IMG/VR virus record: IMGVR_UViG_3300041809_000428
Span: 1-37,312 of that record
Origin: a virus
Direction: 5' to 3' (one strand)
DNA length: 37,312 nucleotides
A program made the translations under genes and the position numbers. Numbering within the stretch: position 1 is the first letter of the stretch; each line of letters opens with the position of its first letter. This document shows, one piece after another, positions 10,803 through 37,312 of the stretch. The notes below the pieces were generated by a model. That model searched no databases. It had not been told where the DNA came from and worked only from the letters and a program-made list of their open reading frames with translations.

Positions 10803-10838
10803 GCATGTTGAGTCGAAATTCAACCAAAGGAGAACACC

Positions 10839-10949: not shown

Positions 10950-10955
10950 TCAGAT

Positions 10956-11210
10956 ATGGCTACTTCAATGGCAAATCCGCAGGCATCGGCTCCTCAACCA
11001 CAGGGGGCCGATGCCGGTGCGTCTCAAGCGAATCCTCTTCAGACAACTCTGGGCAAGATTGCAATGCTGCTCAAGCAGGTAGCTCAGCAAAATACTTCCG
11101 TGCAGGAACCTCTTAATCAGGCAGTTCAATCCATCGTGCAGGCGATTCAGATGAGTTCGCAGGCGGCTACCCAGCCGCAACAGCAACCATCTGCGCCGCC
11201 GCAACAGTGA
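10956..11210 (+). CDS. Gln/Pro-rich small protein in the head operon
   Basis: The 84-residue product has low-complexity ends (MATSMANPQASAPQPQGAD and a QPQQQPSAPPQQ tail) around a helical core (LQTTLGKIAMLLKQVAQQNT, LNQAVQSIVQAIQM). It may be a small scaffold partner or head-assembly factor. It stops eight bases before the scaffold gene. No ribosome site stands out, so it may be coupled to the basic protein upstream. Confidence 0.65.
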   Translation: MATSMANPQASAPQPQGADAGASQANPLQTTLGKIAMLLKQVAQQNTSVQEPLNQAVQSIVQAIQMSSQAATQPQQQPSAPPQQ

Positions 11211-17718: not shown

Positions 17719-17888
17719 GCCGGGAAAATGCCTTTCATGAGATTCACGAAGGCAAGACCTACTCAAAAACCAAGCGCAAAAGGGGTACCAAGGTCGCCAA
17801 TAAACAGGCTGTTGCCATCTACTTCAGCAAGGCGCGTCGGGGAGAGTACGGAAAACGGGCAAAACGCAAGGCGGACAGAGGTAAGTAG
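17694..17888 (+). CDS. Basic small protein, DUF6496-like
   Basis: The 64-residue product has the pattern FHEIHEGKTYSK..KVANKQAVAIYFSKAR. This resembles the small DUF6496 family (HE.K.GKL.SG..KV.S.KQAIAIALSEA). It is strongly basic at the C-terminus (RRGEYGKRAKRKADRGK). The ATG lies inside the adaptor gene, 25 bases before its stop, with AGGAGG upstream, and its stop overlaps the tail-hub GTG. The function of the family is unknown. Nucleic-acid binding is plausible from charge. Confidence 0.7.
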   Translation: MGNQRDAVSRENAFHEIHEGKTYSKTKRKRGTKVANKQAVAIYFSKARRGEYGKRAKRKADRGK

Positions 17889-20800: not shown

Positions 20801-21163
20801 TGGACCTTTCTTCCTGCGGCAGTGATTGGCTGGAAAACAGGGTTGCTGAGCTACGGGCCGGGATGGGGACATGTCGAGTGGATTAACCTTGCCTATCAGT
20901 CTACGGCGGCGGTGACGCTGGTCATGACGCCCGACAACGGAAGTCCGATCACATTGACTTTCCCAAGCACAGGAGGCGCGCAAGTGAAGCAGTTTTTGAC
21001 CTTCCCGCCGAACAAGTTCAAGATTGTGGGATGGACGGCGAACTCCAGCCAGCCATTCACGATCTACGCTGGCGACACATCTGTGATGTTCGCGGCATGG
21101 GGAATTAAGTCGGGATCGATCAAGCCATTTGAAGGCTGGGGAACACCAAAGGCCACAACGTGA
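17888..21163 (+). CDS. Tail hub or nozzle protein (tail tubular protein B-like), 1091 aa
   Basis: This is the largest protein of the window and lies after the adaptor, where podoviruses carry the tubular/nozzle protein with a beta-propeller-like core. Support comes from the C-terminal half: AATRGLFMRYALGGLGALL, AKDGIFISQGGGPEQDIS, IYPPDDTKPKAQTVT and LPVGINQILVGCTDGTIRAF. These read as repeating propeller blades. Residues 300-380 look like an Ig or lectin insert. About 456-541 carry a GTGY-type module (PGSGQTPGTYPIS; PGSGYTSVPTF). GTG 17888 overlaps the previous stop. The function is inferred from order and pattern. Confidence 0.6.
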   Translation: MEQGIRLDIAGGINTVASADQIPENGGGWPYLCNVRKNRKSMTVARYPLGSNLLASSLGAGITSVSRLNDPYKTSPSYAYISGSSGSLYVGTTQVASGLSTNPLSFLPYRPPDSPQPWDYIADPSLAVSILNPSYAAYGAVCGMLKVRSDGTCYKVGIKEPQTAPIVNVSSAASPYWVTYRYLYRSKITGALSNPSPESVPIQVELASQAGSYTMDPSYATYITYNTSQYEPAVSDTQLRTKGIPSGTLTDYIIAKDLPGLVGTVPTGSQVTGVSVSITWNGQNNGTGVLANVALFYQGAVIGQIKSPGTINTQTIQTTVQGGASDVWGAILTPDVVNDSTFGFGIQVLTEQSGSTNRSFFYTFTITVYYANFSATGTCTLSLDPQVDTIDVYRQTPGLDNFTYTLSIANSGSGSFTDTLSDLTIANNPILNYNNYEPFPSIDLPRSGTCNVLGVSEEVTAVGTVSPGSGQTPGTYPISAVGGGGTGAVVTVVIDGSGIISTSTPPVVTHPGSGYTSVPTFPLTFGGTPGTVSATISPILPLVPNVVWVSGDIFNVRWLPGTAILIADSTGSQIGYLLYNRPSDTTHMLVYNTTTTDTGFITFGFPPAGTGLTWQIIAPDLAAEPSPVIWGPTPDSGGGSFMMGLDPLNPGDLLTSTGNNFDSAPSSQRLYICSPSEGLVNGIVTSELHVVFSPERFWLLYPNFSDAVATVTGTTGPLWTPVQAAATRGLFMRYALGGLGALLAWRAKDGIFISQGGGPEQDISANIYNLFPHGEPEGPSPVVIGDKTIYPPDDTKPKAQTVTCVPGYIFYNYQDTTGTPRTLVFDMEAKGWVVDAYTPQVNCHALPVGINQILVGCTDGTIRAFDTASTESQTAVIITRSENKGSTRIVKRVGGVFLRAVAASAITLAFWANRIQTAITGFAPGVTGTGASESDYLVDFTSATNADVKDLACEFSWSITSGNILSEWQPDWTFLPAAVIGWKTGLLSYGPGWGHVEWINLAYQSTAAVTLVMTPDNGSPITLTFPSTGGAQVKQFLTFPPNKFKIVGWTANSSQPFTIYAGDTSVMFAAWGIKSGSIKPFEGWGTPKATT

Positions 21164-21982: not shown

Positions 21983-22603
21983 ATGAACCTGAAAGCATTC
22001 CTTATCGAGCTTTGGCGCAACGAAGATGGATTCTTCGGGATTGATATGGGTCCGTCTGGCGGGGAGTACGGCGCCACCAATGCGCTGACCGGAGAGTCCG
22101 GTTTCTCTGGCTCGGTGGGTGAAGGTCTGCTCTCGAACTCTTCCGCGCTCATCAACGGACTACTGAGCGGAAATCAGGCTGATATAGCCAAACTTCTCGC
22201 CCCTCAGATTAGCCAGATTTCCAAGCAGGCCAACGAAAAGACACAGACCAATGCGGAGTTTGGTTCTCGCTCTGGAGGTACGAACGCCTCAAACCAGAAC
22301 ACGATGGACAGTGCTCGTTCGAGCGTCAACGACATGATTTCTTCACTCACTTCGGGAGCCATCGGACAGGGCGCGTCTCTCGGAAGCGGCCTCTTGAGTA
22401 GCAGTATGAGCGGATACAATGACGTGTTCAGCCAGAATCTTGAGGAGCAACAGCAGCGGCTAGCTAAGTTCAACGACATCGTCAATAGTTCGGCCCAGGT
22501 TGCATCAATGGGTGTTGGAGCGTGGAGTGGAGTAAACGCAACCCCCGCAGGAGCATCTACAGGCGAACAGTGGCTGGCTGGATTGACAGGAGCGGGATTC
22601 TAA
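21983..22603 (+). CDS. Small internal or ejection protein, 206 aa
   Basis: Following AAGGGA, the product begins with a hydrophobic helix (MNLKAFLIELWRNEDGFFG), then is Ser/Asn/Gly-rich with helical repeats (LLSNSSALINGLLSGNQADI, NEKTQTNAEFGSRSGGTNA). The C-terminal half has another helix (SQNLEEQQQRLAKFNDIV). The composition and the place before two large Gln-rich helical proteins fit the smallest member of a podovirus ejection trio. Its stop shares a base with the next ATG. Confidence 0.6.
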   Translation: MNLKAFLIELWRNEDGFFGIDMGPSGGEYGATNALTGESGFSGSVGEGLLSNSSALINGLLSGNQADIAKLLAPQISQISKQANEKTQTNAEFGSRSGGTNASNQNTMDSARSSVNDMISSLTSGAIGQGASLGSGLLSSSMSGYNDVFSQNLEEQQQRLAKFNDIVNSSAQVASMGVGAWSGVNATPAGASTGEQWLAGLTGAGF

Positions 22604-24153
22604 TGGGCGATGCAGGAAATGGACTCGACTGGCTTGCGAATAGAGCACAGAATCGCACGGACGCGAACATGCAGACCATCCGCGCACGCGAACAGGACGC
22701 GCTTAACATGCAACTCTCTCCTCTCCAACAAGCGTTGCGTGCCGACCAAACACGTCTTGCTCTCTATGCCAACCCCGATGATCCTTCGAAGCCTCTTGCG
22801 GGCAAGGAAAACGAGTATAGACAGACGCTCGACCGCATGACGCAAACCATCGGCCAGATGCGGCAACTTTACGGCCAGAAACCGCAAGGCGCAAATCCCG
22901 TAGAGGCTGGAGTAGGGAACCTGCTCGACAGCCTGCATATCACCAACCATCTCAAGAATCACGTTGCGCAGGTTCGCGCGGATAACGCCAAGAAATATGG
23001 GGATCAGACGGCGGCAACGGCGGGAGCGTATGCGGCCGGAGCGATGCCGTTTGAGATGACGCCACAAGGCAAACAGCTTGCGTATCAGCGTCAGACGGAA
23101 GAGGAGGTGCAGCGCCTACGGAATGAAGGGGGGGCTACTTCTTATCACAATTTCAGACTTTCTGACGGGTCTGTGGTTCCTATCGACACTCGGCACCAAA
23201 CACCATCCCCAGGAGCCGTGGAAGTAGGAACGGCTGGTCAGTCTCCCAAGTCGGTACAAATTGCAGGAACGGACGGGAAGCCGGTATTTGCATCCTTACT
23301 GAACGGTAAATACTACGATCAGCAAGGTAACGAAATACCGGACGCAAAGCCTTATGTTCATACTGCCGCCCCAAGTCCTAAGCCTGGAGTTTCAGGAGGA
23401 AAGAACGTATTTGCTCTGTTGACTGATAAGGGGTGGGTAAATGCGGACACGCGAGAGCCGATGCATGATTTCCGTCCTGCTCCATCATTCGCGCAGACTG
23501 GCCTCTATGGCATTGATATGGTGCAAAATGCGGATGGTACTATTGGTTCCGCATTGCTTAACCGGCGCACTGGAGAATTCAAGAAGATTTCCGGACAAGG
23601 TGGGACGCCTATTGATCCTGCTTTGATGGCTCAGGTTAATAAGAGTCTTGAGCCTGCCATTGAATCAGATACCCGTTTCCGTGTAATGAAGGATGCCGAA
23701 AAAGATGCGCTAAACGGTAACCAGCAAGCCATGTTGAATATCGTTGCAAACCATATGGGCATGACGCTTGGACAGCAGAGGGGAACGCGTATCAGTCAGG
23801 CTCAGTGGAATGAGGCTATAGCTTCTGCGCCATGGGTTGATACTGAGGCCTCTAAATGGTTCCATACCGATCCCGATACGGGCGATCACGTGTTCGATGG
23901 TTACAAAGGTGGAGTCAATATTACTCCTACGCAGATTCACCAGATGGTTGATTTGGCTGTAACCCGGAGAAAACGTCAGTGGCAACAGGCACAACAGGCT
24001 GGAAGTGTGTATGGCGTCAATGTTCCAATACCTGAAGATTTAGATAATCCGTCAAGCGCATTGCAAGGTCCAGTTTACCGAAAGAATATGAATGCAAAAC
24101 ATCATGGTGGCAGAAAATCTTTGGCTGACCGGCTCAGTGAGGCTCTGCAATAA
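22603..24153 (+). CDS. Internal virion (ejection) protein, 516 aa
   Basis: ATG 22603 overlaps the preceding stop (TAATG), with AGGAG upstream. Helices rich in Gln and Ala run through the first 200 residues (NRTDANMQTIRAREQDALNM, LSPLQQALRADQTRLALYA). A Gly/Lys/Pro-rich middle and a Trp-containing helical C-terminus follow. This is the pattern of T7 gp15/gp16-like proteins that leave the capsid first and build the channel for DNA entry. No enzymatic motif (such as a lytic transglycosylase) is visible. The C-terminal 15 residues are basic. Confidence 0.6.
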   Translation: MGDAGNGLDWLANRAQNRTDANMQTIRAREQDALNMQLSPLQQALRADQTRLALYANPDDPSKPLAGKENEYRQTLDRMTQTIGQMRQLYGQKPQGANPVEAGVGNLLDSLHITNHLKNHVAQVRADNAKKYGDQTAATAGAYAAGAMPFEMTPQGKQLAYQRQTEEEVQRLRNEGGATSYHNFRLSDGSVVPIDTRHQTPSPGAVEVGTAGQSPKSVQIAGTDGKPVFASLLNGKYYDQQGNEIPDAKPYVHTAAPSPKPGVSGGKNVFALLTDKGWVNADTREPMHDFRPAPSFAQTGLYGIDMVQNADGTIGSALLNRRTGEFKKISGQGGTPIDPALMAQVNKSLEPAIESDTRFRVMKDAEKDALNGNQQAMLNIVANHMGMTLGQQRGTRISQAQWNEAIASAPWVDTEASKWFHTDPDTGDHVFDGYKGGVNITPTQIHQMVDLAVTRRKRQWQQAQQAGSVYGVNVPIPEDLDNPSSALQGPVYRKNMNAKHHGGRKSLADRLSEALQ

Positions 24154-26504
24154 TGCCTCAGAATGCACAATCCGATCCTATTCAGGAGTTCATTGCGCTT
24201 CCACGCGATCAGCAGCTTTCAACTCTGCAAAGTCTTCCCCCTGACAAGCAGGACAAGTTGCTAGCGCGAGTTAAGGAGTATCGGCAGAAGGGAACCGCTA
24301 CCCCCGTTTCGACTGATCCAAGCGGTCGCACTCCCACCGGTGAACCCGCACCAGGAGATACTCGAAATCCCGCGCAAAAATGGCTGGATAATCTCGTCAC
24401 TCCTGATCCCCGCCGCGAGGAATGGCAGAGCCCGGCAAGGAATGCGACGGAAGACGTAGTGCGCCACGTGGGTCAGACGTTTATACCTCTTATTTCCCAT
24501 CCGATAAACACTGCTAGAGGAATGCTCAAGAGCGCAGGCAATGCAATTGCCGATAACCCAGGAAATGCGCAAGGCGCAGTGTTTGATTTCTTTGTCAAGC
24601 CTCTGGTCGAGCAGGCAGTGACTGAATCAGCGGAAAAAGGAAAGACGCGAGCGGCGCTCAATCTATTGGGCACCGGGGTAGGCATATGGGCTACCGGCGA
24701 AGTGACTGGAACTGGAGCGAAGGCCGCGCGTCCTGTAGTCGGAAAAGTGACGCGAGGATTGATGGATACCGCAGCGAAGGCACGGGAGGCTGCGGTTGGT
24801 AAATATCGCCCTAGGGCGGTTGAGGTTGGAGGCGAAAATATTCCGGTTATGGTGGGAGAGGCTGAACCGGAAAGCTCGGCGGGAAGATTGCAAACAAGGT
24901 TAAAGCGTTCCGGTTCTGGTGCTAAGAGTTTTGAAAAGGTTGAGAGCGCTCAACAGGAAGCGGCAAAGAACGTAATCAAGAAAACTGCACAGAAAGCATC
25001 TGGTCAAATCGGTCCACTTCAAGCTGAACCGGGAGCAGTAGTAAACGATGCGGCTACAGCATCCTTCGCACAGGCAGGGCCTCTCTACGAAAGCCTTGAT
25101 GAATCGCTTAAGACCGTTCCAGAAGCGTTAACCAATGTATCGAAATTGGTGGATACGGCTATCGGAAGAGCGCGTAAACTTGGAGTGGTTATCGATGATG
25201 GGGGAGGCGATATAAGTAAAATTCGACCAGACAAGGACGGTGCTATTCAGTGGGGAGGGACAAGGATTTCTAAGGCTACACAGCCTGAGCGGTGGGCTGA
25301 ATTGGTCGATCAGGGGATTATTGACGAATCTGGCAACGGAACGCCTATGAAGGCGTATCGTAACGTGATTTCACAGTTGAAGTCTATGCAGAGATCGTCC
25401 ACAGACGGAGCTACAAGGTTTGCAATTGGGAAAGAAATAAACACCCTTACGAACAACATGGATGCCGCTCTTAGAGGAACAAGAGCCAGGCCAGAAGTAA
25501 ACTATGTTCGTCGTGGCTTGGATATTGATTATCAGGCAACAGAAGCAAATCTACCTACCGTCAAAAGTGGATACACTAGATTATTTCGATCTGAGTCTCC
25601 CACAACTAAATTTGGAGATGTGTTCAACGCCGATAAACTAGGTGAATTTGCAAAGCAAACCACCGGGGAACACTATACAAGTGATCTTTCTTATGCGGAC
25701 TATTTTCGACAGAGTTATGGGCGCGATGCGCGTACATATTATATCGACGTTCCGAATTCCATCGCCAATAAAACCAGAGTGGGAGAAAGCTCCGAATATC
25801 ATTTAAGTAACGCCGAAGTGGATAACGCGCTTGGCGAGTCATCGCTTGAAAAGACATGGCATGAGGCTGACCGCCTCTGGAGGCAGGGTCATGCTCGTAT
25901 TGATGTAGCGAAAGCGATCACGGATGCAACCAAAGGACCGAGGGCATCCATAACTCCCGCAGGAATGGCGGAAGTGCCTACCGAGATGCAGGGTTCAAGT
26001 CTCGTAAAGTCGCTCGATAAACTGCTCGACGATGGAACTCTCGAAGACGCTTTTACTCCAGATGAAGGAAAGAATCTTCGTCAGTCCGCTTTGATTCTTG
26101 ACCGCATACAGAAAACATCACCGGGAACTGGATATGGAGAATCAGGTTCAAAATCCCGTGCCATTGCTCATATTCTGCGTGGCTCGCCGGGGCCACTAAT
26201 CGGAGGCGGCATTGGGGCTGGAGTAGGGTTACTGACCGGCCACGCAATAGCTGGACTAGAGGCTGGCGGCTTTGTTGGCTTCGTTGTTCAGAGAATCGGG
26301 GAGCAGGGTCTTATTCGCGTAATGACTAGACTCGATGGAATGAACGCATTGGAGGCGCTAGAGAAAGCTAAAACTCCCGCCGCTGCCGATGCTGCGATGA
26401 AATCCATTCTCACTATTGGCGCAACCGGAGCGTCTATTCAAGGTCCCAAAACTGCCCAACTGCAAAAGACTGCCGATGACGCACGTCAAAATACTGCTCA
26501 GTGA
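24153..26504 (+). CDS. Large internal virion (ejection) protein, 783 aa
   Basis: ATG 24153 overlaps the previous stop, with GAGG upstream. The protein has long helical stretches (PDKQDKLLARVKEYRQKG; EKVESAQQEAAKNVIKKT) and a hydrophobic, Gly-rich segment near residue 685 (GGGIGAGVGLLTGHAIAGLE). This is a glycine-zipper that could insert into a membrane. A charged helix follows (LIRVMTRLDGMNALEALEKA). It fits the largest ejection protein, which forms the periplasmic or inner-membrane part of the DNA conduit. No lysozyme or transglycosylase motif is seen. It is the last virion gene before the 210-base gap. Confidence 0.6.
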   Translation: MPQNAQSDPIQEFIALPRDQQLSTLQSLPPDKQDKLLARVKEYRQKGTATPVSTDPSGRTPTGEPAPGDTRNPAQKWLDNLVTPDPRREEWQSPARNATEDVVRHVGQTFIPLISHPINTARGMLKSAGNAIADNPGNAQGAVFDFFVKPLVEQAVTESAEKGKTRAALNLLGTGVGIWATGEVTGTGAKAARPVVGKVTRGLMDTAAKAREAAVGKYRPRAVEVGGENIPVMVGEAEPESSAGRLQTRLKRSGSGAKSFEKVESAQQEAAKNVIKKTAQKASGQIGPLQAEPGAVVNDAATASFAQAGPLYESLDESLKTVPEALTNVSKLVDTAIGRARKLGVVIDDGGGDISKIRPDKDGAIQWGGTRISKATQPERWAELVDQGIIDESGNGTPMKAYRNVISQLKSMQRSSTDGATRFAIGKEINTLTNNMDAALRGTRARPEVNYVRRGLDIDYQATEANLPTVKSGYTRLFRSESPTTKFGDVFNADKLGEFAKQTTGEHYTSDLSYADYFRQSYGRDARTYYIDVPNSIANKTRVGESSEYHLSNAEVDNALGESSLEKTWHEADRLWRQGHARIDVAKAITDATKGPRASITPAGMAEVPTEMQGSSLVKSLDKLLDDGTLEDAFTPDEGKNLRQSALILDRIQKTSPGTGYGESGSKSRAIAHILRGSPGPLIGGGIGAGVGLLTGHAIAGLEAGGFVGFVVQRIGEQGLIRVMTRLDGMNALEALEKAKTPAAADAAMKSILTIGATGASIQGPKTAQLQKTADDARQNTAQ

Positions 26505-26508
26505 CCCA

Positions 26509-26537
26509 TTGACATTGTATTGCTGTTTACGATACGT
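26509..26537 (+). promoter_or_regulatory. Weak promoter candidate
   Basis: A perfect TTGACA at 26509-26514 is followed 17 bases later by ATACGT, a poor -10. It is in the right place to drive the small genes from 26716, as no other promoter-like site stands out in this 210-base gap. Confidence 0.3.
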
Positions 26538-26591
26538 ATAGATGTGTGGCGGCATGACGGGCATGTGTTGGTTGAGTAGAGGGCGTCCGAA

Positions 26592-26704
26592 GTGTAGTAG
26601 AGCGGCCTACACCCCTCGTGGAGACGGTATCCAATCCGTAGCTCGACCGAGCCGATGCGGACTTTCGATCCGCATGGGACCGCTAGTAATCAATCTAGCC
26701 CACG
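26592..26704 (+). ncRNA. Structured, tRNA-like leader with five hairpins
   Basis: A first hairpin (26592-26597/26607-26612) is followed by a closing stem, CGTGG at 26617-26621 with CCACG at 26700-26704. Inside it are four hairpins: 26624-26627/26636-26639, 26641-26644/26649-26652, 26655-26661/26669-26675 with a seven-base loop (CTTTCGA), and 26682-26686/26695-26699 directly abutting the closing stem. That arrangement is cloverleaf-like. The D-like and T-like loops have the wrong sizes, so it is not a normal tRNA. It ends three bases before the SD of the next gene and may regulate it. Confidence 0.4.
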
Positions 26705-26715
26705 CAAAGGAGCGC

Positions 26716-26832
26716 ATGATTCATAGAAGAAGGAGTTTTCGGAGTAGCCAAAAGAGTGGACTGATTTCCGTGTTAATAGGCATCCCGATCATTGCGTTGT
26801 GCATATTGATTCCATGGGTGGTGATGAAATGA
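26716..26832 (+). CDS. 38-residue single-membrane-span protein
   Basis: AAAGGAG at 26706-26712 sits just upstream of ATG 26716. The product starts with a basic tract (MIHRRRSFRSSQKSG), continues as one hydrophobic span (LISVLIGIPIIALCILIPWVV) and ends in MK, suggesting a membrane helix with a cytoplasmic positive end. This size and topology occur in small holin-like or regulatory membrane peptides. No endolysin lies nearby, so lysis is only a guess. Its stop overlaps the next ATG (ATGA). Confidence 0.65.
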   Translation: MIHRRRSFRSSQKSGLISVLIGIPIIALCILIPWVVMK

Positions 26833-27140
26833 GTAAGTCGAATCCAATGTCATTTCGTTTTTCCAACAAGACGGTGGAGCGAATCCTCTATCTTTCTGAG
26901 TTCTTTGAGACTTCGCAGAGTGCCGTTATAGATCGTGCTGTTCGGGAACTGTATGAACGGGAAGAAGAGAGGAATAAAAGGAAAATTAGGCAACTAAAGG
27001 TAGACCTAAAATTGATCAATAAAAACATGCGTAAAAACAGTCTTTCTGCTACAGATCAAGCGCTTATAGAGGCCGACAATAAGGCATTAAAGGCGCTGAT
27101 AGCTGACATCAGAAAAAGCGCAAGCAAGGGAGCGCAATGA
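26829..27140 (+). CDS. Ribbon-helix-helix protein with coiled-coil tail
   Basis: Residues 7-45 have the strand-helix-helix layout of CopG/RHH DNA-binding proteins: SFRFSNKTVERILYLSEF then SQSAVIDRAVRELYEREE. A charged coiled coil (RNKRKIRQLKVDLKLINKNM) and a second helix follow, which could add tetramer contacts or bind nucleic acid. RHH proteins often repress their own operons, so it may regulate this cassette. It starts in an ATGA overlap with the membrane peptide and ends in an ATGA overlap with the Lar-type gene. Confidence 0.75.
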   Translation: MSKSNPMSFRFSNKTVERILYLSEFFETSQSAVIDRAVRELYEREEERNKRKIRQLKVDLKLINKNMRKNSLSATDQALIEADNKALKALIADIRKSASKGAQ

Positions 27141-27862
27141 GTATGCGTGATCGCATTGAATATTATCGCAAAGTTGGCAATGAGTACGTCAGGATAGAAA
27201 ATCCTTCCGATGAACTCAAGGCAATGTTCACGCCTCCACCTCCCGGATTTGGCACATGTGCGGCGGTTGTCACTGAAGAGAAAATTCCAGAATCGGATGA
27301 TGCATACGCACGGGCAACAAAAGCTATCGGCGCAACCACTCTTTCCATGGAAGAAGGAAAGAGGATTATAGCGTTTGTCGAAGGCGCGATTCACGGCGGG
27401 TTAAATCCCGCACAGCCGATACGAGTGCCAAGGGAAATTGAAGACTTAGCCTACGAAATAGGTTCCGGCCTGCATTCAGATTGCCAATCTGGGGTTGATG
27501 CGGCAAACGCTGCTCTCGCAGAAGCCTTTGAGCGCGGATGGAACCTTGGGCGTGGAGTAATAAAATCTGTTCCGATCTGGACAGGAATAGACAAGGATAA
27601 GCGATCCAATGGGTTCGATGATTACCTGCGCGAAGGGGAGCCTTATATCCCAAATCGCAGTCCCTTAAGCCCATGCCCTTTCTGTGGCGCTGGCAACACA
27701 TCGCTTCACATTAAGCCCCTCTTGATCGTTGAAGACGGTATGGATGATGTGCAAATAGTATCCTGCAAGAACTGTGGGGCAAGCGGCCCAAGAGGAAAAA
27801 CTTCCGTGGAGTCCGTCATGCGGTGGAACACTGGGACAAGGGGCATCAGGAACAAAAAATAA
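27137..27862 (+). CDS. Lar-type restriction-alleviation domain protein with novel N-terminus
   Basis: Residues 178-235 match the Lar zinc-ribbon family: SPCPFCGAG with C180 and C183, then CKNCGASGP with C210 and C213, and the ending SVESVMRWN. In E. coli, Rac-prophage Lar modulates the type I restriction system and protects unmodified DNA, and many phages carry such domains. The N-terminal 175 residues are not Lar. They open with DRIEYYRKVGNEYVRI, a motif shared with the minus-strand gene at 29041, followed by a helical domain (REIEDLAYEIGSGLHS, ANAALAEAFERGWNLG). This may direct the Lar domain to a target. Confidence 0.75.
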   Translation: MSMRDRIEYYRKVGNEYVRIENPSDELKAMFTPPPPGFGTCAAVVTEEKIPESDDAYARATKAIGATTLSMEEGKRIIAFVEGAIHGGLNPAQPIRVPREIEDLAYEIGSGLHSDCQSGVDAANAALAEAFERGWNLGRGVIKSVPIWTGIDKDKRSNGFDDYLREGEPYIPNRSPLSPCPFCGAGNTSLHIKPLLIVEDGMDDVQIVSCKNCGASGPRGKTSVESVMRWNTGTRGIRNKK

Positions 27863-27896
27863 TATGCAAAAAGCGTTCATTCAAAGAAGGTGATTC

Positions 27897-28136
27897 GTGG
27901 ATGAAGACGTGCTTTACATTGTGCCCGACGCGGAAATGAAATTTAGGCCGCAATTGATGGAGATGACGGTCTACGGTTTCTGCGCTGGCTCGCCTCTACC
28001 GAAACCGACGCCAATTGAAACATGCAAAGTCTGCGGAAGACAGAAGGCAGAACATAACCACGACGGTGGGGGCGTTTACTGGTGCCCCGACAATGTCAGC
28101 GTCAGGGCGTCATTCCCCATCGAAAAAGACAAATAG
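27897..28136 (+). CDS. Small zinc-binding protein, 79 aa
   Basis: GTG 27897 has AAGG upstream. C43-x2-C46 (ETCKVCGRQ), H53/H55 (AEHNHDGG) and C63 (YWCPD) form a plausible zinc site resembling small treble-clef fingers. The N-terminus is acidic (MDEDVLYIVPDAEMK). No family is identified. It stands in a run of regulatory and defence-related genes, four bases upstream of the Fe-S nuclease-like gene. Confidence 0.65.
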   Translation: MDEDVLYIVPDAEMKFRPQLMEMTVYGFCAGSPLPKPTPIETCKVCGRQKAEHNHDGGGVYWCPDNVSVRASFPIEKDK

Positions 28137-28139
28137 AGC

Positions 28140-29057
28140 ATGACGCTGAACACTGCCCGCCTCATGCTCAGTGACGATCTGTGCGCTCGGCGCGCATGGT
28201 ATGGCTTGCGCTGGCAAGCCCCCTTCCTTACCCCAAAGCAAATCCTCGTTTCCGCTGTCGATCATGGACTGTTAGCGTCTGGCGATGCCGGGGAAGCGGC
28301 AGAAACTTACGCGCTTGACCTATGCGTCAATCCTGGCCTGGATACCGCGGAGCCTGACATGCTTGCGGTTGCGGAGCATATAGCATCCTTTGCCAATCTT
28401 CTAGCGTGGACACTACAGGGCACAGGAGGACCGTGGAAGCGCCCTGAGGCCATCAGGCTACCGGATGGGTCACCATGGACCACTGGCGCGTTCCTGAGCC
28501 CCACGGAGACGCATCTGCGCCGGGTTGTGCTACTCGATAGGTGGGACGCTTGGGCGGAAACAGCGCTTGAGCGTGGATGGGATACGGCGGGGGAATGTTC
28601 CGTCTACGGCGCCCCAATGGACTGCCTGATTGTCGAGATAGGCGCTATGCGGAACGGGCGGTGGGGCAACCCTTTTACGCGAGGGTATCGGCACCCGGTT
28701 TCGAAGACTCTGCGATTCCGCAAGCGGGACGGGGAAGACTTTGGCTCGACATGGAGCAAGGTTGAACGGGAGCACGAATCGGCATCGCGGGAAGAATGGC
28801 TGGGCACTCTCACTGAGGATGGGATTCTGGCGGAAACTATCCACGTCCATCAGGTTCCTGTGCCGGAACGATCCGGTGCAATCTTGCACTTGGCTCAGTC
28901 TAGACTGGCGAGGATACGGGAGGCCGGGGAACCTCCCGAAGAGAATCTGTCGATGTGTTTTTCTCGGATGAATCCATGCCCGTTCCGATCATGCTGCCCG
29001 CGGGGTGAGGAACCATCAGAATCTTTGGGTTTCACTCGAATTACATCATGCCCCTAA
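28140..29057 (+). CDS. Fe-S cluster, PD-(D/E)XK nuclease-like protein
   Basis: The four-Cys arrangement is the main clue: C15 in DDLCARRAWY near the N-terminus, and C273, C280 and C285/C286 at the C-terminus (MCFSRMNPCPFRSCC). It resembles the split [4Fe-4S] cradle of Cas4/AddB-type nucleases, where one N-terminal Cys joins three C-terminal ones. A possible active site lies around D161-E166 (PMDCLIVEIG) with basic residues following, but a canonical D..ExK is not clear, so activity may be reduced or absent. It could process DNA ends in recombination or defence. Tail-to-tail overlap with the minus-strand gene is 17 bases. Confidence 0.5.
   Translation: MTLNTARLMLSDDLCARRAWYGLRWQAPFLTPKQILVSAVDHGLLASGDAGEAAETYALDLCVNPGLDTAEPDMLAVAEHIASFANLLAWTLQGTGGPWKRPEAIRLPDGSPWTTGAFLSPTETHLRRVVLLDRWDAWAETALERGWDTAGECSVYGAPMDCLIVEIGAMRNGRWGNPFTRGYRHPVSKTLRFRKRDGEDFGSTWSKVEREHESASREEWLGTLTEDGILAETIHVHQVPVPERSGAILHLAQSRLARIREAGEPPEENLSMCFSRMNPCPFRSCCPRGEEPSESLGFTRITSCP
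28876..28889. repeat. Dispersed 14-bp palindrome, copy 5
   Basis: GTGCAATCTTGCAC lies in the nuclease-like gene, encoding Ala-Ile-Leu-His. Apart from the two central positions it is a full palindrome. Confidence 0.3.
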
Positions 29058-29673
29058 CGTCTCGGCGCATATCGTCTGCCAAGGCAACCGCAAACGATTC
29101 ATTCTGATTGCGTGCCTGTTGCGGGGCTTGGGCGGGTTCCGAAGTGATGTTGCCAATATTCGCGGGCATCTGAAGAACTGGAGCAGGAGCGGCATATCCC
29201 ACATTGACCTGTGCCGGCCGATTTTCCAGTTGTGCGATGAGGCCGATGCGATATTGCACCTCAGTTTCGATCCCCTTCAATTCGGCTTCTGCGGCTTGGA
29301 ACCTGCTTTGGGCCAGCAGGTAGGCGGAGTGGGCCTCGGTAAGTCTTTGGCGCACTTCGTCACGCTGGGCAACTCTCTGGACGACTTGCTCCTGAAGGGC
29401 AAGGACCGATGGCGAAGGCGGTAGAGGGGCTGGAGGTGCAACTACAGGAACCGGATTGGTATCAACTGAGCCTTTGAGTTGAGTATAGGTTCCATCGGGG
29501 TTTTTGCGGAAGTAATCGATTCTATCAACGTTGGCAGGAAGACCAGATTTTCTCGCTGCCCATCGCGCTTTGGCGGCATCGGAAAGAGCCTTCTTGCTGG
29601 CTGCGCTCATCTTGCGCTTCTTGGTTTTGGTAGTGGTCGCGGGTGACTCTGAAGTGATGACGGTGTTTTCCAT
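29041..29673 (-). CDS. Minus-strand helical protein with basic N-terminal motif
   Basis: This is the only leftward gene I support. The N-terminus (KKRKMSAASKKALSDAAKAR then WAARK) is a lysine/alanine-rich motif found in DNA-binding-type proteins of soil bacteria. It is followed by DRIDYFRKNPDGTYTQL, almost the same motif as at the start of the Lar-type protein. A Pro-rich linker and a long coiled coil (VLALQEQVVQRVAQRDEVRQ; QSRFQAAEAELKGIETEVQY) follow. The coherent sequence and the unlikely plus-strand alternatives make it genuine. Its start at 29673 faces the divergent fibre operon, with GGAGG about 12 bases upstream. Confidence 0.75.
   Translation of the reverse strand: MENTVITSESPATTTKTKKRKMSAASKKALSDAAKARWAARKSGLPANVDRIDYFRKNPDGTYTQLKGSVDTNPVPVVAPPAPLPPSPSVLALQEQVVQRVAQRDEVRQRLTEAHSAYLLAQSRFQAAEAELKGIETEVQYRIGLIAQLENRPAQVNVGYAAPAPVLQMPANIGNITSEPAQAPQQARNQNESFAVALADDMRRDVRGMM
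29246..29259. repeat. Dispersed 14-bp palindrome, copy 6
   Basis: ATGCGATATTGCAC lies within the minus-strand gene. It matches RTGCRAKMTYGCAY as the other five copies do. Confidence 0.3.
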
Positions 29674-29802: not shown

Positions 29803-32721
29803 ATGCTCAAAAAGATTTTCTTATTCCTGCTGTTCGGCACCGTCCCGATACTGGCCCAGACGGGTCCGATTCAGGGGCATTCGTTTTTAGGCGGTACGCA
29901 AGCGAGCACTTCCGGCCTCAAGTCTACAAACTACTTAGATGGCATCATTCCCTCGGCTACCATCTGCGTGTATCTGACTGGAACTCATACTGCCGCAACA
30001 ATTTATTCGAATGCTGGGGGAACGCCTCTTTCTAGTTGCTTTACATCGAACACGGTCAGCAGCGTAAACCCCGGTGGATGGATATTTTGGTCTGCTACGG
30101 GTCAGGCTGTGGATGTAATTGGAAGTGGAGGAATTTCCCCGAACACATATCCAGCCCCGGTCCCTCTATGCGTGGACTGTTTTCCATCGCAAGCGGGTGG
30201 CGGAGGCGGTGGAGCTTGTATCTCTTCGGGTGCGGATATTGTTTGCAACTCCAACAACTTTGACGCTACCCAAGTAGATGCGGAAAACTTCGCTGCGGGT
30301 ACGGCCTTCAACGTCAACGCGGGTACCGCTGTGAACATCAACAGCGTTGGAAGCACAGACCTTAGCTCCACGGGAGGAATCGAGGCTGACGATAACAGTG
30401 CCAGTGCAGGCATCCAATTCAATGAGACAGGAGCAGCGACTTCCGGCGTGGATGTGCACGCGGGCGGCTGGTACGAAAATTCATTGGGAGGCTTGTCTTA
30501 CAGCGATAACAGCTCTGGGGGTATTGCGATTGACGAAGCTTATGGCGGAGGGTTGGTAAGCATCGCAGCGGACAATCTCAAACTCTATTCTTTAACCTCC
30601 GCCGATGCACAGCTTAACGGTTCAGAAATCTGCACGTTTGCGACCGGCTGCGGTGGAAGCGGCGACTTCTCCGGCATGACGCAGTATGGGCTCCCTGTGG
30701 CGGCAACGGCTTCGACGGGTACGAGCAGTGTCCAACCCTCTTCTTGGACCAGCGGACATACGTTTATTCCCGCATGGCTGTCCCTGGGAAGCGCCCTTGC
30801 TCCCACGGCAATTGATCTTGGAACCTACATCGGGGCCAATATCACAGCATCTCTGCCTCTGGTTGCCACACCCTCAACCTTGGGAACCGCGCTCAGTTGC
30901 CCTACCTGTGGAAGTTCGACTGGCGGCACGGCGGTTACGGTTAACGGCGGCGGGGCGCTGGCGTCGCTCAACATTAACGCAACTGCTCCGGTGGCCGATG
31001 CATCCTACCTCGCGCTTCTGCCGAAAATCAGCGGCGGCAGCGTCATTATAGAAGCGCCCTATGGAACAGGCGCGGCCAAGGGCGTGTTGCAAGGAGATGC
31101 CTCAACGCTCTCCATCTCCAGCGGCGTGATCTCCTGCGCTACGGCAACCAGCAGTCAATTGGGATGCGTGAAGCCCGATGGGACAGTGATTACCGACACG
31201 GCAGGAGCAATTACCGTGCCCGCCGCAACTAGTTCCGCTCTGGGCGTGGTCAAGCCGGACGGCACGATCATTACTGACTCTTCGGGTGCAATCACGGTTG
31301 CCAAGGCGTCCAGCTCCGCTTTTGGAGTGGTGGAAGTAGACAATACGACCATTACCGCAACTGGCGGCGTGATTAGTGCGGTGGGCGGAAGCGGGGCAAC
31401 CTACCAGACGCTTACCTATCCCAATGATTCGACAGGCACGCACAATGGCCGCATGGCGTGCTGGGTATCGGGCGGATCGCACGGTGTCAACACCATCCAA
31501 GACTGCCCAACTAGTTATGGGGTAGCTAATGGTGGTACAAACAATCCCGCGCCGATGGTAGGCATTGTCGTTTCGGGCGGAGGCACTACGGGCAACGCCG
31601 TAGTCGCGGTCTCCGGTTCTGGGATTCAATGGATTTGCGATGAGGCAGTCGTTCCGAGCGCAACGGGAAGTTCATGGCTGCAACTGAGTTCGAGTGTGGC
31701 TGGCGAATGCTACCAGCCAAACACAGGTGACTTGACGCCGAACGAGAACCCGGAAAGCAATACAATCGACGCTTACGCGACTGCGGGAAATTCGGGAGCG
31801 GGAACGCCAGCGACAGTGACTCTGGTATGGAACGGTTGGTATGTGCCCACCGCTGCGGGATATAACTATATTGTTCTTGGCGCAAATGGGTCTCCCTCTC
31901 AAGGAGCCTCTCATTGGTTTCAACAACCTTCCAGCTCGGCAACAGAATACGATCTTGGTTGTTGGCCAGTCTGCGGAATTGCCATCCCTCAGTACACTGG
32001 CGATACCGCACACTACACGCATTTTGGTTACTCCGCGAATGGCGTGAGCGGGAATGACACTCTTTTGGATGCGCGAACCTATCGCCGAACGAGCACCGAT
32101 TCTGCGCAGTTTGAAATGAATACTCAAATGTGGCAACCGCCCACCACGGGGGGAACGTGGAACGGCAGTCTCGCCATCGATATAAGCAACTGGACCAACA
32201 TCATCGCGGCAACCCTGGCAGGGAACACCACGGTCACGCTCACCTACGAAAACCCCGGTCACTATCAAACGTGGGATATTACGCAGGCGGCGAGCGGTGG
32301 ACCGTACGCTCCGACCTGGCCGGCCGATTTTGTGAATGCGCCTACCATGACGACAGTTGCAGGGGCTTCCACCTTATTTGAAACCTACTGGGACGGAACC
32401 CACCACCTTTGTACGTGGGGCTGTGCGGGTAGCGGCGGTGGAATCGCCGACATACAGGTAACGGTCGGCACAACCACAGTGAGCGCGAACTCCTGCACTG
32501 GTGCGTCAACGGCAACAATGACCGGCCTTGCAACCACGAGCGCGATTTTCTATAACCCCGCCTCGGACATTTCGGCGGTCACAGGCTGGAGCCCGGCAGG
32601 AACAACGCTTTATTTCGTTGCATGGCCAACCGCGAACACTCTGAATTACAAAGTGTGCAACGCCTCCGCGTCCAACATTACGCCGGGTAGCTCGACTACT
32701 TGGAATTTTGGTGCACGATGA
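29803..32721 (+). CDS. Secreted tail-fibre-like protein, 972 aa
   Basis: The N-terminus (MLKKIFLFLLFGTVPILAQ) is a textbook Sec signal peptide with probable cleavage after ILA, leaving Gln first. The rest is fibre-like. Residues 25-110 hold a domain known from phage and prophage fibre genes (LDGIIPSATICVYLTGTH, ..GGWIFWSATGQ). About 449-528 has three 27-residue repeats of the form SSxxGVVKPDGTxITxxxGAITV. The C-terminus is Thr/Ser-rich beta. Virion fibres are normally made without a signal peptide, so this should be exported. It may be an adhesin-like or enzyme-presenting fibre. It starts at ATG 29803, not the TTG upstream, because of the signal peptide. Confidence 0.8.
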   Translation: MLKKIFLFLLFGTVPILAQTGPIQGHSFLGGTQASTSGLKSTNYLDGIIPSATICVYLTGTHTAATIYSNAGGTPLSSCFTSNTVSSVNPGGWIFWSATGQAVDVIGSGGISPNTYPAPVPLCVDCFPSQAGGGGGGACISSGADIVCNSNNFDATQVDAENFAAGTAFNVNAGTAVNINSVGSTDLSSTGGIEADDNSASAGIQFNETGAATSGVDVHAGGWYENSLGGLSYSDNSSGGIAIDEAYGGGLVSIAADNLKLYSLTSADAQLNGSEICTFATGCGGSGDFSGMTQYGLPVAATASTGTSSVQPSSWTSGHTFIPAWLSLGSALAPTAIDLGTYIGANITASLPLVATPSTLGTALSCPTCGSSTGGTAVTVNGGGALASLNINATAPVADASYLALLPKISGGSVIIEAPYGTGAAKGVLQGDASTLSISSGVISCATATSSQLGCVKPDGTVITDTAGAITVPAATSSALGVVKPDGTIITDSSGAITVAKASSSAFGVVEVDNTTITATGGVISAVGGSGATYQTLTYPNDSTGTHNGRMACWVSGGSHGVNTIQDCPTSYGVANGGTNNPAPMVGIVVSGGGTTGNAVVAVSGSGIQWICDEAVVPSATGSSWLQLSSSVAGECYQPNTGDLTPNENPESNTIDAYATAGNSGAGTPATVTLVWNGWYVPTAAGYNYIVLGANGSPSQGASHWFQQPSSSATEYDLGCWPVCGIAIPQYTGDTAHYTHFGYSANGVSGNDTLLDARTYRRTSTDSAQFEMNTQMWQPPTTGGTWNGSLAIDISNWTNIIAATLAGNTTVTLTYENPGHYQTWDITQAASGGPYAPTWPADFVNAPTMTTVAGASTLFETYWDGTHHLCTWGCAGSGGGIADIQVTVGTTTVSANSCTGASTATMTGLATTSAIFYNPASDISAVTGWSPAGTTLYFVAWPTANTLNYKVCNASASNITPGSSTTWNFGAR
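31147..31389 (+). repeat. Three 81-bp tandem repeats in the fibre gene
   Basis: Units start at 31147, 31228 and 31309 and encode 27 residues each (TSSQLGCVKPDGT; TSSALGVVKPDGT; SSSAFGVVEVDNT). The third has diverged. The pattern is typical of beta-helical fibre shafts. Confidence 0.8.
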
Positions 32722-35219
32722 GAAAGCTAATCCTTATCTTCGCGCTCGCTCCTGCACTCATGGCGCAGACTGTCACCTTCAATGACTCAACCGTTTTGCG
32801 AACGAATCCACGCCCTGCTTCAATTCAGATGGGAACTCTGAATTACTACGATTCAGGGCAGATGCTCAAGAATCTGATTGGCTCACTCAATCCCGGTTTT
32901 GAGCCCCTTATCAATCAAGCGATCTATGTACTGACAACAGCCGGGACCGCCAACAGTTTCACTGAGCCTGTGAGTTATGACACTCCAGCAGTAAACTATT
33001 GGGCCGGAGCTACGTTCAACGTGATTGCTTCGCAGTCAGGTGGTGCGGAACTGGGATGTTCTACCACGATTGCGTCGAACACGTCAGGTCCTCCACCTGT
33101 CTTCACGCTGTCCTCATCATGTGCGGCGGCGTTGGCAGTGGGTGACATGATTACGCTGAGCATGACGACAAGCCCCACGCCTGAATCGTGGCTGGAATCC
33201 TCAAATGGCGGTTTCTGGTCCTCAATCAGCGGGGGCGGCAAGATTACAGCAGATACAACTGACCTGTGTGCGACATGCGGCACTCAGGCACTTCACCTCA
33301 ATGCGACGAGCGGAACGTCCAAGGCGATTCTCTACTACGACACGCAAGCCGATGATGTGTATGTGCTGATGAATGGCACCTATTCACTCTCGTTCTGGGC
33401 GAAGGCGGCAAGCGGTAGCCCGACTATGACCGTGACGGCAGCGCGGCCTGTGACAGGTGGGTTCTCTTGCGGTCCTTACACCCCAACACTGACAGCGACT
33501 TGGACGCAGTATACCTACTCTTGCACGGCATCCGAGAACGCCTCAGTTGTAGTACCGGGGAATGCGAACGTCACGTTCTCGGTTACGGGCGGTGCTGCAT
33601 ATCTCGATAACCCAGATTTCGAGAAGACAGGCGCAACTAATACGACCATCCTCACCGACGCGGCAATCAACGCTTTCAAAACTGCTCTCGGGACAGGCGC
33701 ACAGTCTCCCGGATTGTTCCGCTTCTGGCTTGGTCAGAATGGGGAAACAGCCTACAACTGGACACAGCCGGACTATGCGAGGCTGGCGACCGCTGCGGGA
33801 CCATCCTATGAGATGGTGCCGAATGGCGGGGGTAGTCGGAATCTTTCCCTGGAAGACTACTTAGTCATCTGTCAATACCTCGGCGCGGAACCTTACTTGG
33901 AGATTCCGGTCACCATCACCACGGCCGATGCTTCCAACATCATCGACTTTCTGGGAGGATCAACCGGGACAACCTACGGTGCCCGCAGAGCGGCTCTTGG
34001 ACAGACAGCCCCTTGGACCTCAGTCTTCTCTAAAATCCATCTTTCTTATTGCAACGAGTGTTGGAATTCGACAGGTGCCGGACAGAATCTGCCGTGGCGG
34101 TCTTCCGCTCCTTCGACGGTTTATTACTACGACTATCAGGCGCGGGCTACACCGATTCTTGCCGCGATGCGGGCCACTGGGAGCTATACTTCCGCAGCAT
34201 TTGATCTGACCATCGGACTTCAGACGGCAGTGAATTATTCCGCTGACGCTTCGATTGCTGCAATCAAGCCGGATTCGATTGAGTTGAATGACTACCAAGT
34301 GGAGTACGTTCCTACGACTACCCCGACAGATGCACAATTGTGGGGACCGGCGATGGTCAATCCCTATTTTCCGTTGGTAAGTTCGACGGACGTGTCGAAT
34401 CTTTACACTTCGATTCACGACTATCAGGCGTTGAATACGTGCGGGGCTTCCGGAACTGCCGCCTGTCAAGTTTCTATTTATGAGTGGGGCCAGAACACAC
34501 TTTCGATATCCGGCAGCACGATTGACCAGACCCATCTTGATTACGCCAACGCGGGCGGTGGGAACGCGGTAATCGACGCGCTGGTTCCTTTGTCTCTCAT
34601 TCAGACCTACGGCATCGACAAGACGAATATGTTCTCTCTGGCGCAATACCAATTTCAGAGCGGATCGCTGCAAGCAAAGCTTTGGGGTGAGGTCGTAGAC
34701 ATGGGCGGCGCGACAAACAACGTGCGTCCTGGATACCTTGGCCTTGAATTGGCGAACGCGGCGAACATCGGAAATATGTATTCTTGTCCGATTTCCTCCG
34801 GGCCGACCTACACGTTTGCGGGATCGACCAGCACGCCAAACCCGCCTTCAGCGATGCCCTCGCTTTCGGGAGTGCCGTATCTCTACGCTTTCTGCTTCGA
34901 GAATGGAACTGCGAGGGCGCAGGTCTACATCAACACGGATTTGACGAGCAGCCACACACTTACGTTTGCGGGGACCAATCCACCCACGGGAACAGTGACG
35001 GTAAAACAGGTAGCCCCGCCATCGCTTGATTCTCTGAATGAGGCGGCTACGGGAACACCGACAAATACGACTGCGGCCACAGTGAGCATTGCAACATCTT
35101 CTCTGACTAGTCCGTCAAGCGTTTCGTTACCGCCCTATTCGGTGACGGAAATCACTTACTCGACGAGCGCACCCGCTCCGCCCGTCCTAACCGGATATGC
35201 CGTAGGGCATTCATGGTGA
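32718..35219 (+). CDS. Secreted glycoside hydrolase, clan GH-A (GH51-like), with CBM
   Basis: A Sec signal peptide (MRKLILIFALAPALMA|QT) precedes a short N-terminal motif (NYYDSGQMLKNL, NPGFE) like that of secreted soil-bacterial GH51-type enzymes. Residues 157-301 form a CBM4/9-like jelly roll (YSLSFWAKAASGS; YLDNPDF). The catalytic barrel shows FRFWLGQNGE..YNW near 334-348 and LGAEPYLEIPV. The acid/base N446-E447 is in CNECWN and the nucleophile E589 in SIYEWG. A beta-sandwich ending LPPYSVTEI closes the protein. This should cleave plant, fungal or bacterial polysaccharides outside the cell; arabinofuranosidase is the best guess. The start overlaps the fibre stop (ATGA). Confidence 0.75.
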   Translation: MRKLILIFALAPALMAQTVTFNDSTVLRTNPRPASIQMGTLNYYDSGQMLKNLIGSLNPGFEPLINQAIYVLTTAGTANSFTEPVSYDTPAVNYWAGATFNVIASQSGGAELGCSTTIASNTSGPPPVFTLSSSCAAALAVGDMITLSMTTSPTPESWLESSNGGFWSSISGGGKITADTTDLCATCGTQALHLNATSGTSKAILYYDTQADDVYVLMNGTYSLSFWAKAASGSPTMTVTAARPVTGGFSCGPYTPTLTATWTQYTYSCTASENASVVVPGNANVTFSVTGGAAYLDNPDFEKTGATNTTILTDAAINAFKTALGTGAQSPGLFRFWLGQNGETAYNWTQPDYARLATAAGPSYEMVPNGGGSRNLSLEDYLVICQYLGAEPYLEIPVTITTADASNIIDFLGGSTGTTYGARRAALGQTAPWTSVFSKIHLSYCNECWNSTGAGQNLPWRSSAPSTVYYYDYQARATPILAAMRATGSYTSAAFDLTIGLQTAVNYSADASIAAIKPDSIELNDYQVEYVPTTTPTDAQLWGPAMVNPYFPLVSSTDVSNLYTSIHDYQALNTCGASGTAACQVSIYEWGQNTLSISGSTIDQTHLDYANAGGGNAVIDALVPLSLIQTYGIDKTNMFSLAQYQFQSGSLQAKLWGEVVDMGGATNNVRPGYLGLELANAANIGNMYSCPISSGPTYTFAGSTSTPNPPSAMPSLSGVPYLYAFCFENGTARAQVYINTDLTSSHTLTFAGTNPPTGTVTVKQVAPPSLDSLNEAATGTPTNTTAATVSIATSSLTSPSSVSLPPYSVTEITYSTSAPAPPVLTGYAVGHSW

Positions 35220-35223
35220 TTCA

Positions 35224-35577
35224 ATGAAGAAACTCTGGCTTCTGCTTTTCCTCTTCGCGCCTCTGGCTCAGGCACAGTCAGGTGCGCAACTGACCATCAC
35301 AGACGCAAGCTGCACATCCACCGCGCCGTGTACTGTGCTCGTTTACCGCGCACCTGGTGCGTGTCCTGCGTCCGGCATCGGTACGCTGACCTACGCGCAA
35401 GTTGCCTCGCTGGCCAGCGGGTATTCGTGGGCATGGTCGGATGGTGGACCTCTTGCAGCCGGAACGTACTGCTACTATGCAACAGCCACTAATGGGGGTG
35501 GGGTCTCTTCGCCTTCAAACACCTTTCAAAAAGCGGTACAAACACCGCCTGGCCCGCCAGTCCTCGTTGGAAAGTAG
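35224..35577 (+). CDS. Small secreted fibronectin-like protein, 117 aa
   Basis: A clear signal peptide (MKKLWLLLFLFAPLAQA|QS) precedes a single beta domain of about 90 residues. The domain has a fibronectin III-like pattern (VLVYRAP, YSWAWSDGGPLAAGTYCYY, NGGGVSSPSNTF). Four Cys (C31, C37, C47, C83) could form disulfides, in keeping with export. It lies four bases after the glycosidase stop and could accompany or present it. The family is not otherwise known to me. Confidence 0.7.
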   Translation: MKKLWLLLFLFAPLAQAQSGAQLTITDASCTSTAPCTVLVYRAPGACPASGIGTLTYAQVASLASGYSWAWSDGGPLAAGTYCYYATATNGGGVSSPSNTFQKAVQTPPGPPVLVGK

Positions 35578-35584
35578 GTAACCG

Positions 35585-37312
35585 ATGAAGCACATCTTCT
35601 GGACTCTCGTTGCAATCCTCATACTGGCGCTGCCGGTGGTGGGACAGATTAGCAACCCGAGTGTCATTCCCTCGTCTCCGCCTTCTACCTGTAAAGCAGG
35701 TGTCCCACTTTGGAGCGTCTTCAGCACAGGTACGCTCTATATCTGCAATAATGGGACACCTACAGCAGTTAGCGGTGGTGGCGGCGGCAATCTCTCCGGC
35801 ACCCTGACTCCCGGTTACTTGCCTTTGTCGATAACCGATACACACACACTAGGCAATTCACTGGCGGATTATGGAGTGACGACGGCGGGGACGTATACAT
35901 TCCCTCAGAATATGGCAATTGGGGGCACGGCACAGCTACCGCTCTCTGGTTACACAGTTGATGGTCCTTTAAGTATTGGGCCGCAGCAGAGTATCTTTGT
36001 CGAACCGCTGAGCGATTACATTCCAGTCAACGCGAGCAATGTGATTGCAGGGAATCATACTGATCTTTCTCCGGCACTTGCGCTCTACAACCAAAACACG
36101 CTGACAAGTGTCCAGATAGCGACGGCACTTGAAGCAATTGAGCAGGTCAATGGAACTGCGTCTTCGGCTGGGATTTATTCAGTCGGCTTGTCCATTCCGG
36201 GCTTAGGAAATACCTCGAATGAATTTACTGCGGGTGTCGTAGGGTCGTCTCAAATTGGAGTCTACCCCGGTGGCACCGACGTGGGTGGTGCGCCTATTCT
36301 CGCATCTCTTTATGCAGCGGCCAATTCAAATTTTAGTCTCAAAACACGAGTGCCAATCAATGCGGGTCTTTATGTTGAACCACAGGCCGATCAAGGGCTT
36401 GTAAATGCCGGGGTTTACATATCCGACCAAACGACTACTGCTGGAGATTACGCCGAATATATCGCGGGAGGCGAATTGTACTCACATGGACCAGTGCAGT
36501 TCGACAACATCACCGGCCACGGCACGGCAGGAGTGGTGGCCATCGACGCGAGTGGGAACCTGTCTGTAGGCTCGGCGGGCAGTTCCGGGGTAAATATCCC
36601 CTATGGCACAGCGGGGGGCACGGCCAACGCGCAAACCTTGACGACTACTCCGCCTGTGACTTCGTTGAGCGTAGGGACGACAGTCACATTCATTCCATCT
36701 GGTTCTCCATCGAGCGGTTCGCCCACTTTGAATGTGGGAAGTACGGGCGCGAAGACTATCGTCAAAGGCGGTTCAACCTATCCCACCGCGCTTTTCACTG
36801 GCGCGAATGGCGATATGAATACAGCGATGTATTCAACCGTGACCTATGACGGGACCTATTGGGTCCTGCAAAATCCGGCTGGCTTGAGCGGTCTGTATGT
36901 GGGAAGTTCCAGTGTTGCAATTGGGCCTACGGGCATTCCAAATCCAGGGTCCAGTGCAATACAGATTGGTGCGGGAACAAATTCAGCATCCCAGGATACG
37001 GTTGTTGGATATGCCGCAGAAGGGAGCGGGGCGGGCGGAGGAAGCGACTCTATTTTCGGATACTCATCCTGTACGGGGTCGGGAGGCGCGAACGCTTGTT
37101 TTGGTCATAACGCAGGTCGCAATCAGGGAACTTCCGGGACCGGAAACTCTATCTTTGGTGCGGAAGCTGGGTATGGAACAGGCCACAATAACAGCTTCAC
37201 AGATTCGGGGTATTTCGGTTATGGCGCCTCCCCGAGCGCAAATTCAGTTGTAAATCAGTGGCTTTGGGGGTATCAGGTTACCTCTTCGCTTTCCAATTAT
37301 CAACAGTTCGGC
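35585..37312 (+). CDS. Secreted fibre-like protein, cut by the window end
   Basis: The frame is open from ATG 35585 to the last base (576 codons, no stop). A signal peptide (MKHIFWTLVAILILALPVVG|Q) opens it. It is followed by C36-type early Cys residues, a beta-rich region and, from about residue 470, fibre shaft repeats (DSIFGYSSCTGSGGANACFG; NSIFGAEAGYGTGHNNSF). These repeats are typical of self-trimerising fibres that often end in a chaperone domain, which would lie beyond the window. It begins seven bases after the preceding gene. The signal peptide makes it the fourth secreted product in a row. Confidence 0.75.
   Translation, partial: MKHIFWTLVAILILALPVVGQISNPSVIPSSPPSTCKAGVPLWSVFSTGTLYICNNGTPTAVSGGGGGNLSGTLTPGYLPLSITDTHTLGNSLADYGVTTAGTYTFPQNMAIGGTAQLPLSGYTVDGPLSIGPQQSIFVEPLSDYIPVNASNVIAGNHTDLSPALALYNQNTLTSVQIATALEAIEQVNGTASSAGIYSVGLSIPGLGNTSNEFTAGVVGSSQIGVYPGGTDVGGAPILASLYAAANSNFSLKTRVPINAGLYVEPQADQGLVNAGVYISDQTTTAGDYAEYIAGGELYSHGPVQFDNITGHGTAGVVAIDASGNLSVGSAGSSGVNIPYGTAGGTANAQTLTTTPPVTSLSVGTTVTFIPSGSPSSGSPTLNVGSTGAKTIVKGGSTYPTALFTGANGDMNTAMYSTVTYDGTYWVLQNPAGLSGLYVGSSSVAIGPTGIPNPGSSAIQIGAGTNSASQDTVVGYAAEGSGAGGGSDSIFGYSSCTGSGGANACFGHNAGRNQGTSGTGNSIFGAEAGYGTGHNNSFTDSGYFGYGASPSANSVVNQWLWGYQVTSSLSNYQQFG

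Follow-up and report, generated by a model that had tools for sequence, protein, structure and literature searches.

Predicted Sec-exported tailspike and fibre genes in a soil phage with a probable acidobacterial host

The assembly of tailed phages is taught as a cytoplasmic process, and tailspikes of the P22, Sf6, Pam1 and Pan3 type, which assemble there, are not known to carry signal peptides. Four consecutive genes at the right end of a viral contig (nt 29803–37312) raise the question of how fibre-like phage proteins that appear to be exported could become part of a virion, or whether they serve there at all. The window, i.e. the whole stretch of DNA analysed, is a linear contig of 37.3 kb, of which 38 ORFs were examined. 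The four ORFs, all on the plus strand, have ATG starts at nt 29803, 32718, 35224 and 35585 and are arranged as an operon, with the stop of gene 1 overlapping the start of gene 2 (ATGA) and later gaps of 4 and 7 nt. According to in-house rules for Sec/SPase I signal peptides (n-, h- and c-regions, small residues at -3 and -1), all four N-termini qualify, and these were the only calls among the 38 ORFs; the probability of four calls clustering by chance is about 5e-4. A second rule, blind to the +1 residue, gave calls on 0.38% of shuffled N-termini versus 7.5% of real ORFs. The predicted cleavage junctions are MLKKIFLFLLFGTVPILA-QTG (gene 1), MRKLILIFALAPALMA-QTV (gene 2), MKKLWLLLFLFAPLAQA-QSG (gene 3) and MKHIFWTLVAILILALPVVG-QIS (gene 4), and no lipobox was found in any of the four. 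The sequence-only reading of this DNA, which had described four signal peptides, each followed by Gln, is borne out to this extent.

Gene 1 (nt 29803–32721, 972 aa) is the most informative of the four, and is predicted to encode an exported tailspike or fibre from the conservation of its N-terminal domain and from profile and fold matches. Its signal peptide (nt 29803–29856), recognised by the n/h/c-region rule and by conservation among homologues, is followed immediately by a domain at nt 29857–30207. An AF2 model of this mature domain, built from 42 sequences, has a pLDDT of 81 (above 90 in the core) and begins with a beta-strand at mature residue 2. In fold comparisons (VIA-align) the Z scores were moderate, at 8.6 to the Pan3 tailspike, 7.8 to Pam1, 7.2 to Sf6 and 6.7 to P22, but the 13 best rows were all Pan3, Pam1, Sf6 or P22 entries, and a profile of the domain (hmmsearch) matched the Pan3 tail spike protein (7eeq_A, named 'Tailspike head-binding domain') with an E value of 2.7e-6. 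Because fold rows and sequence profile agree, the assignment of the mature N-terminus as the head-binding (virion-docking) domain of P22/Pan3-type tailspikes is firm and well supported. Judged by this domain, gene 1 is a predicted virion spike, although a homologue of a head-binding domain might have been reused for some other attachment. Across relatives the N-terminal domain is kept and the C-terminus varies; gene 1 also has fibre shaft-type repeats (SxxLGVVKPDGTxIT..., nt 31063–31215), which match a virion structural protein family (phrog_27494, E 1.4e-8). Gene 1 thus resembles P22/Sf6/Pam1/Pan3-type tailspikes in its N-terminal head-binding domain, its variable C-terminal part and its position near tail genes, but differs in the conserved Sec signal peptide that precedes the domain and, in most exported homologues, in a cysteine pair (see below).

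Terminase, portal, major structural or tail genes of the window have counterparts in 13 viral contigs. A search of related viral genomes for the same gene set, as the earlier reading had proposed, found gene 1's N-terminal domain together with a signal peptide in 9 of these 13 first relatives, and the same cassette in the cultured phages Tunturi_1 and Tunturi_2; the partner genes that accompany gene 1 vary from relative to relative. In the aligned gene 1 N-termini, the window's included, a signal peptide followed by Gln is present in 10/10, even though the sequence of the signal peptide itself diverges. A wider profile scan with the N-terminal domain recovered 68 viral contigs, yielding 58 usable non-redundant homologues, 52 with and 6 without a signal peptide. 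Gln lies exactly at the aligned +1 position in 46 of the 52 (a looser pattern gave 50/52, and the strict count was adopted). Two of the homologues without a signal peptide (L082, L108) come from contigs with a different exported gene elsewhere, and among other signal-peptide ORFs longer than 150 aa in the contigs with gene 1 homologues, 21/45 have Gln at +1.

Among annotated phages, the only significant matches to gene 1 are in Tunturi_1 and Tunturi_2 (E 5e-6). These are also the closest by large terminase (nt 5129–7294, plus strand, phrog_5989; tblastn E 9e-71 over 98%, 27% identity), and infect Tunturiibacter (Acidobacteriota). The window is therefore probably from a soil tailed phage of an acidobacterial host, as judged from distant relatives (27% identity in TerL); since scans of bacterial genomes with the portal and the gene 1 N-terminal domain yielded no provirus, we infer the host from these relatives.

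The shared Gln at +1 is explained by the signal peptide usage of the likely host group. In 450 kb of the Granulicella tundricola plasmid pACIX901 (L131, L133–L152), 24 of 58 predicted signal peptides (41%) have Gln at +1; counted in register the figure is 41/58 (71%), and it falls to 5/58 when the counting window is shifted by 12 residues. In an E. coli control of 120 kb, Gln was at +1 in 1/12. The phage genes and this acidobacterial replicon therefore have the same bias, the window's own host being a prediction, and the +1 Gln of the four genes fits host usage. It seems to be an instance of the Q-rule of Bacteroidetes (PMC5837995, PMC10653852), which it resembles in that SPase I cleavage exposes a Gln, presumed to become pyroglutamate, and from which it differs in being found in an Acidobacteriota plasmid and phages. 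The Q-rule was called specific to Bacteroidetes (PMC5837995, 2018), and Acidobacteria are absent from the main text of that paper; the present counts suggest that it extends further. Glutaminyl cyclase (PF05096) was absent from the one Granulicella plasmid searched. Phage signal peptides fitted to the Q-rule of the host also occur in Nixviridae of Porphyromonas gingivalis (PMC10367356), but in five genes without assigned function, rather than in tailspikes or fibres with a docking domain.

An independent trait sets the exported proteins apart. A cysteine pair in the gene 1 domain is present in 46/52 homologues with a signal peptide versus 0/6 without (Fisher 2e-5, ignoring shared ancestry), and with one exception the two cysteines are either both present or both missing. 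The window's own gene 1 and four other homologues with signal peptides are without this pair, and a second pair (TICVY...SSCF) is found instead in the window's gene 1 and in L067. More generally, the exported fibres have a median of 18.3 Cys per 1000 aa, about 2.5 times the 7.0 found for the same phages' non-exported fibre-like proteins (P 1.6e-11, again ignoring shared ancestry). Both the pair and the enrichment point to an oxidising compartment.

The gp12–gp17 cassette of the cultured phages Tunturi_1/2 is the counterpart of that in the window, and in Tunturi_2 its genes bear the annotations tail fibre, pectin lyase and virion structural protein, with signal peptides on all large members. 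Tunturi_2 has no fibre-like ORF of at least 250 aa that is without a signal peptide, and in Tunturi_1/2 all fibre-like ORFs are predicted to be exported, leaving no evident cytoplasmic spike. The unrelated jumbo myophage Tunturi_5 has an analogous run of six consecutive signal-peptide genes (gp337–gp342), annotated as tail fibres, virion structural or hypothetical proteins. The siphophage Tunturi_4 would have two such genes provided that translation begins before the annotated start codons: for gp111 and gp114 (record positions 80433 and 85018) in-frame upstream starts would add signal peptides, and the annotation is perhaps too short. Exported fibres of this kind are thus predicted in unrelated cultured phages (the podophage Tunturi_2 and jumbo myophage Tunturi_5) and probably in Tunturi_4 as well. 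The paper describing these phages (PMC11924767) does not mention signal peptides. In contrast to the others, Tunturi_3 has no signal peptides on its fibres; as it shares the host strain of Tunturi_1/2, its cysteine-poor fibres form a natural control. In a small control sample (lambda, T4, crAss001, B124-14, phi38:1, FCL-2 and Mt1B1_P3) no fibres had signal peptides.

For the cassette of four genes, searches of Pfam, PHROGs and NCBIfam were largely uninformative. Gene 2 (nt 32718–35219) has a signal peptide, a weak Pfam match to CBM_4_9 and weak PDB matches to GH51 arabinofuranosidases. Its homologue in Halomontanus matches the ASD1 arabinofuranosidase domain at 5e-8, with a shared NE-W motif, and an alignment contains NE-W and EWG motifs (a check for the clan GH-A catalytic pair); a model made without an alignment reached a pLDDT of 34. 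This weak evidence suggests an exported glycoside-hydrolase-like protein, closest to GH51 arabinofuranosidases, with a CBM_4_9-like region. Gene 3 (nt 35224–35577) encodes a small protein of 117 aa with a signal peptide and four cysteines, and has a homologue in the same cassette of relative G004. No recognised virion-docking domain was found in genes 2 and 3, the products of which may be free proteins. Gene 4 (nt 35585–37312) is incomplete, running off the contig end, and is a putative exported fibre by its signal peptide and a weak Phage_depo_C match; its mature N-terminus begins QISNPSV..., and its N-terminal 69 aa are matched in relative G007. N-termini resembling it (Q[VI][ST]NP) occur in other contigs. 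Scans of viral contigs with genes 2 and 4 as queries returned no relatives. A second group of exported fibres, with Q[VI][ST][NS]P[SQ][IV] N-termini, comprises the window from nt 35585 onward, G004 (9647–11152), G007 (1882–3480), L069, L089 and L108, and occupies more than one genome position.

Conserved signal peptides, host-like +1 Gln, the cysteine signature and recurrence in unrelated phages together make it very likely that the four proteins are exported through Sec. Carrying a docking domain as well as a signal peptide, such a tailspike has to encounter the virion beyond the cytoplasm, unless it is divided between two pools; the simplest reading is that it docks once the cell has lysed. 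We consider it somewhat probable that the spikes of this operon are Sec substrates which are processed, disulfide-bonded and docked onto virions at or after lysis. The precursors would cross the inner membrane and be cut by SPase I before Gln, which the host would probably cyclise to pyroglutamate (the processed gp12 of Tunturi_1/2 would then begin pyroGlu-TAAYPNGVCSAGAAK). Disulfides would form and spike trimers fold in the periplasm. Even ahead of lysis, the spikes that have been exported, together with the putative glycoside hydrolase of gene 2, may trim surface polysaccharide of the host. Virions in the cytoplasm, already filled, would be spike-less until holin and endolysin open the membrane, upon which the head-binding domain of gene 1 would dock onto the tail. 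Assembly of fibres outside the membrane was among the options listed by the sequence-only reading and is now the leading one, such extracytoplasmic assembly being our inference. A 1967 study, known from its title among the references of PMC6024685, counts toward the feasibility of such late docking. Full-text literature searches found no earlier report of this and no precedent for a Sec-exported tailspike. The more general proposal, that tail assembly in phages of Acidobacteriota is completed beyond the inner membrane from a periplasmic pool of processed, disulfide-bonded spikes taken up at lysis, and that podo-, sipho- and jumbo myophages adopted this independently, is put forward tentatively, with a little under an even chance of being right.

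The earlier reading also spoke of a secreted module. On an account of this kind, exported depolymerases and adhesins, their fibre-like domains borrowed from tailspikes, would work separately from the virion, stripping polysaccharide from the host or its neighbours or helping release. Export itself has gained support from several lines, and the signal peptides on all four genes, the glycoside-hydrolase-like gene 2, the lack of a recognised docking domain in genes 2 and 3 and the differing partner genes among relatives all suit such a module. For gene 1, separation from the virion is weakened by the head-binding domain directly after the cleavage site, as well as by the pattern, seen in receptor-binding proteins, of a constant N-terminus with a C-terminus that varies, and it would leave Tunturi_1/2 without a recognisable tail fibre or spike; we regard this account as unlikely, though the most probable of the rivals. 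It is improbable that slow signal peptides divide each spike between cytoplasmic virions and an exported fraction, which would reconcile docking domain and signal peptide, as the cysteine enrichment and the covarying pair imply that it is the oxidised, exported form that functions. Phage-encoded exported proteins for superinfection exclusion or as decoys are known in other phages, and the C-terminal parts of the spikes do vary like receptor-binding parts. Acting on the receptor from within the envelope, by binding or cleavage, to block other phages or re-adsorption nevertheless calls for no head-binding domain and for no run of as many as six exported genes with large fibres among them, and is slightly more improbable still. 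It is very improbable that ordinary virion fibres use the hydrophobic N-termini as anchors that stay uncleaved or as segments for trimerisation, given small-x-small motifs with a +1 Gln that matches the host bias, the cysteine signature and a fold that begins right at the mature N-terminus.

If assembly does proceed by docking at or after lysis, an extracytoplasmic step would be added to tailed-phage assembly, disulfide-rich receptor-binding proteins would be explained, and co-infecting phages could share spikes. The cultured virus-host pairs of the Tunturi phages allow direct testing. The fact that the Gln coincidence reflects a host rule makes it, by itself, no new system.

Several features lie outside the cassette. 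A tail or hub structural gene (nt 17888–21163, plus strand; phrog_438 baseplate wedge, E 1e-4) has no signal peptide and is conserved in relatives, and sequence searches found no solved structural relative of it; in relative G001 an exported fibre of 1032 aa (nt 25532–28630, LSA-QVLGPP) adjoins the tail hub gene, apart from the main cassette. Two further genes (nt 22522–24153 and 24153–26504) were rejected as ordinary fibres, as they look like charged, helical internal proteins. A gene at nt 27137–27862 shows a Lar-like restriction alleviation match (phrog_599, E 6e-6), and two genes on opposite strands (nt 28140–29057, plus, and 29041–29673, minus) lie ahead of the exported cassette in almost all relatives.
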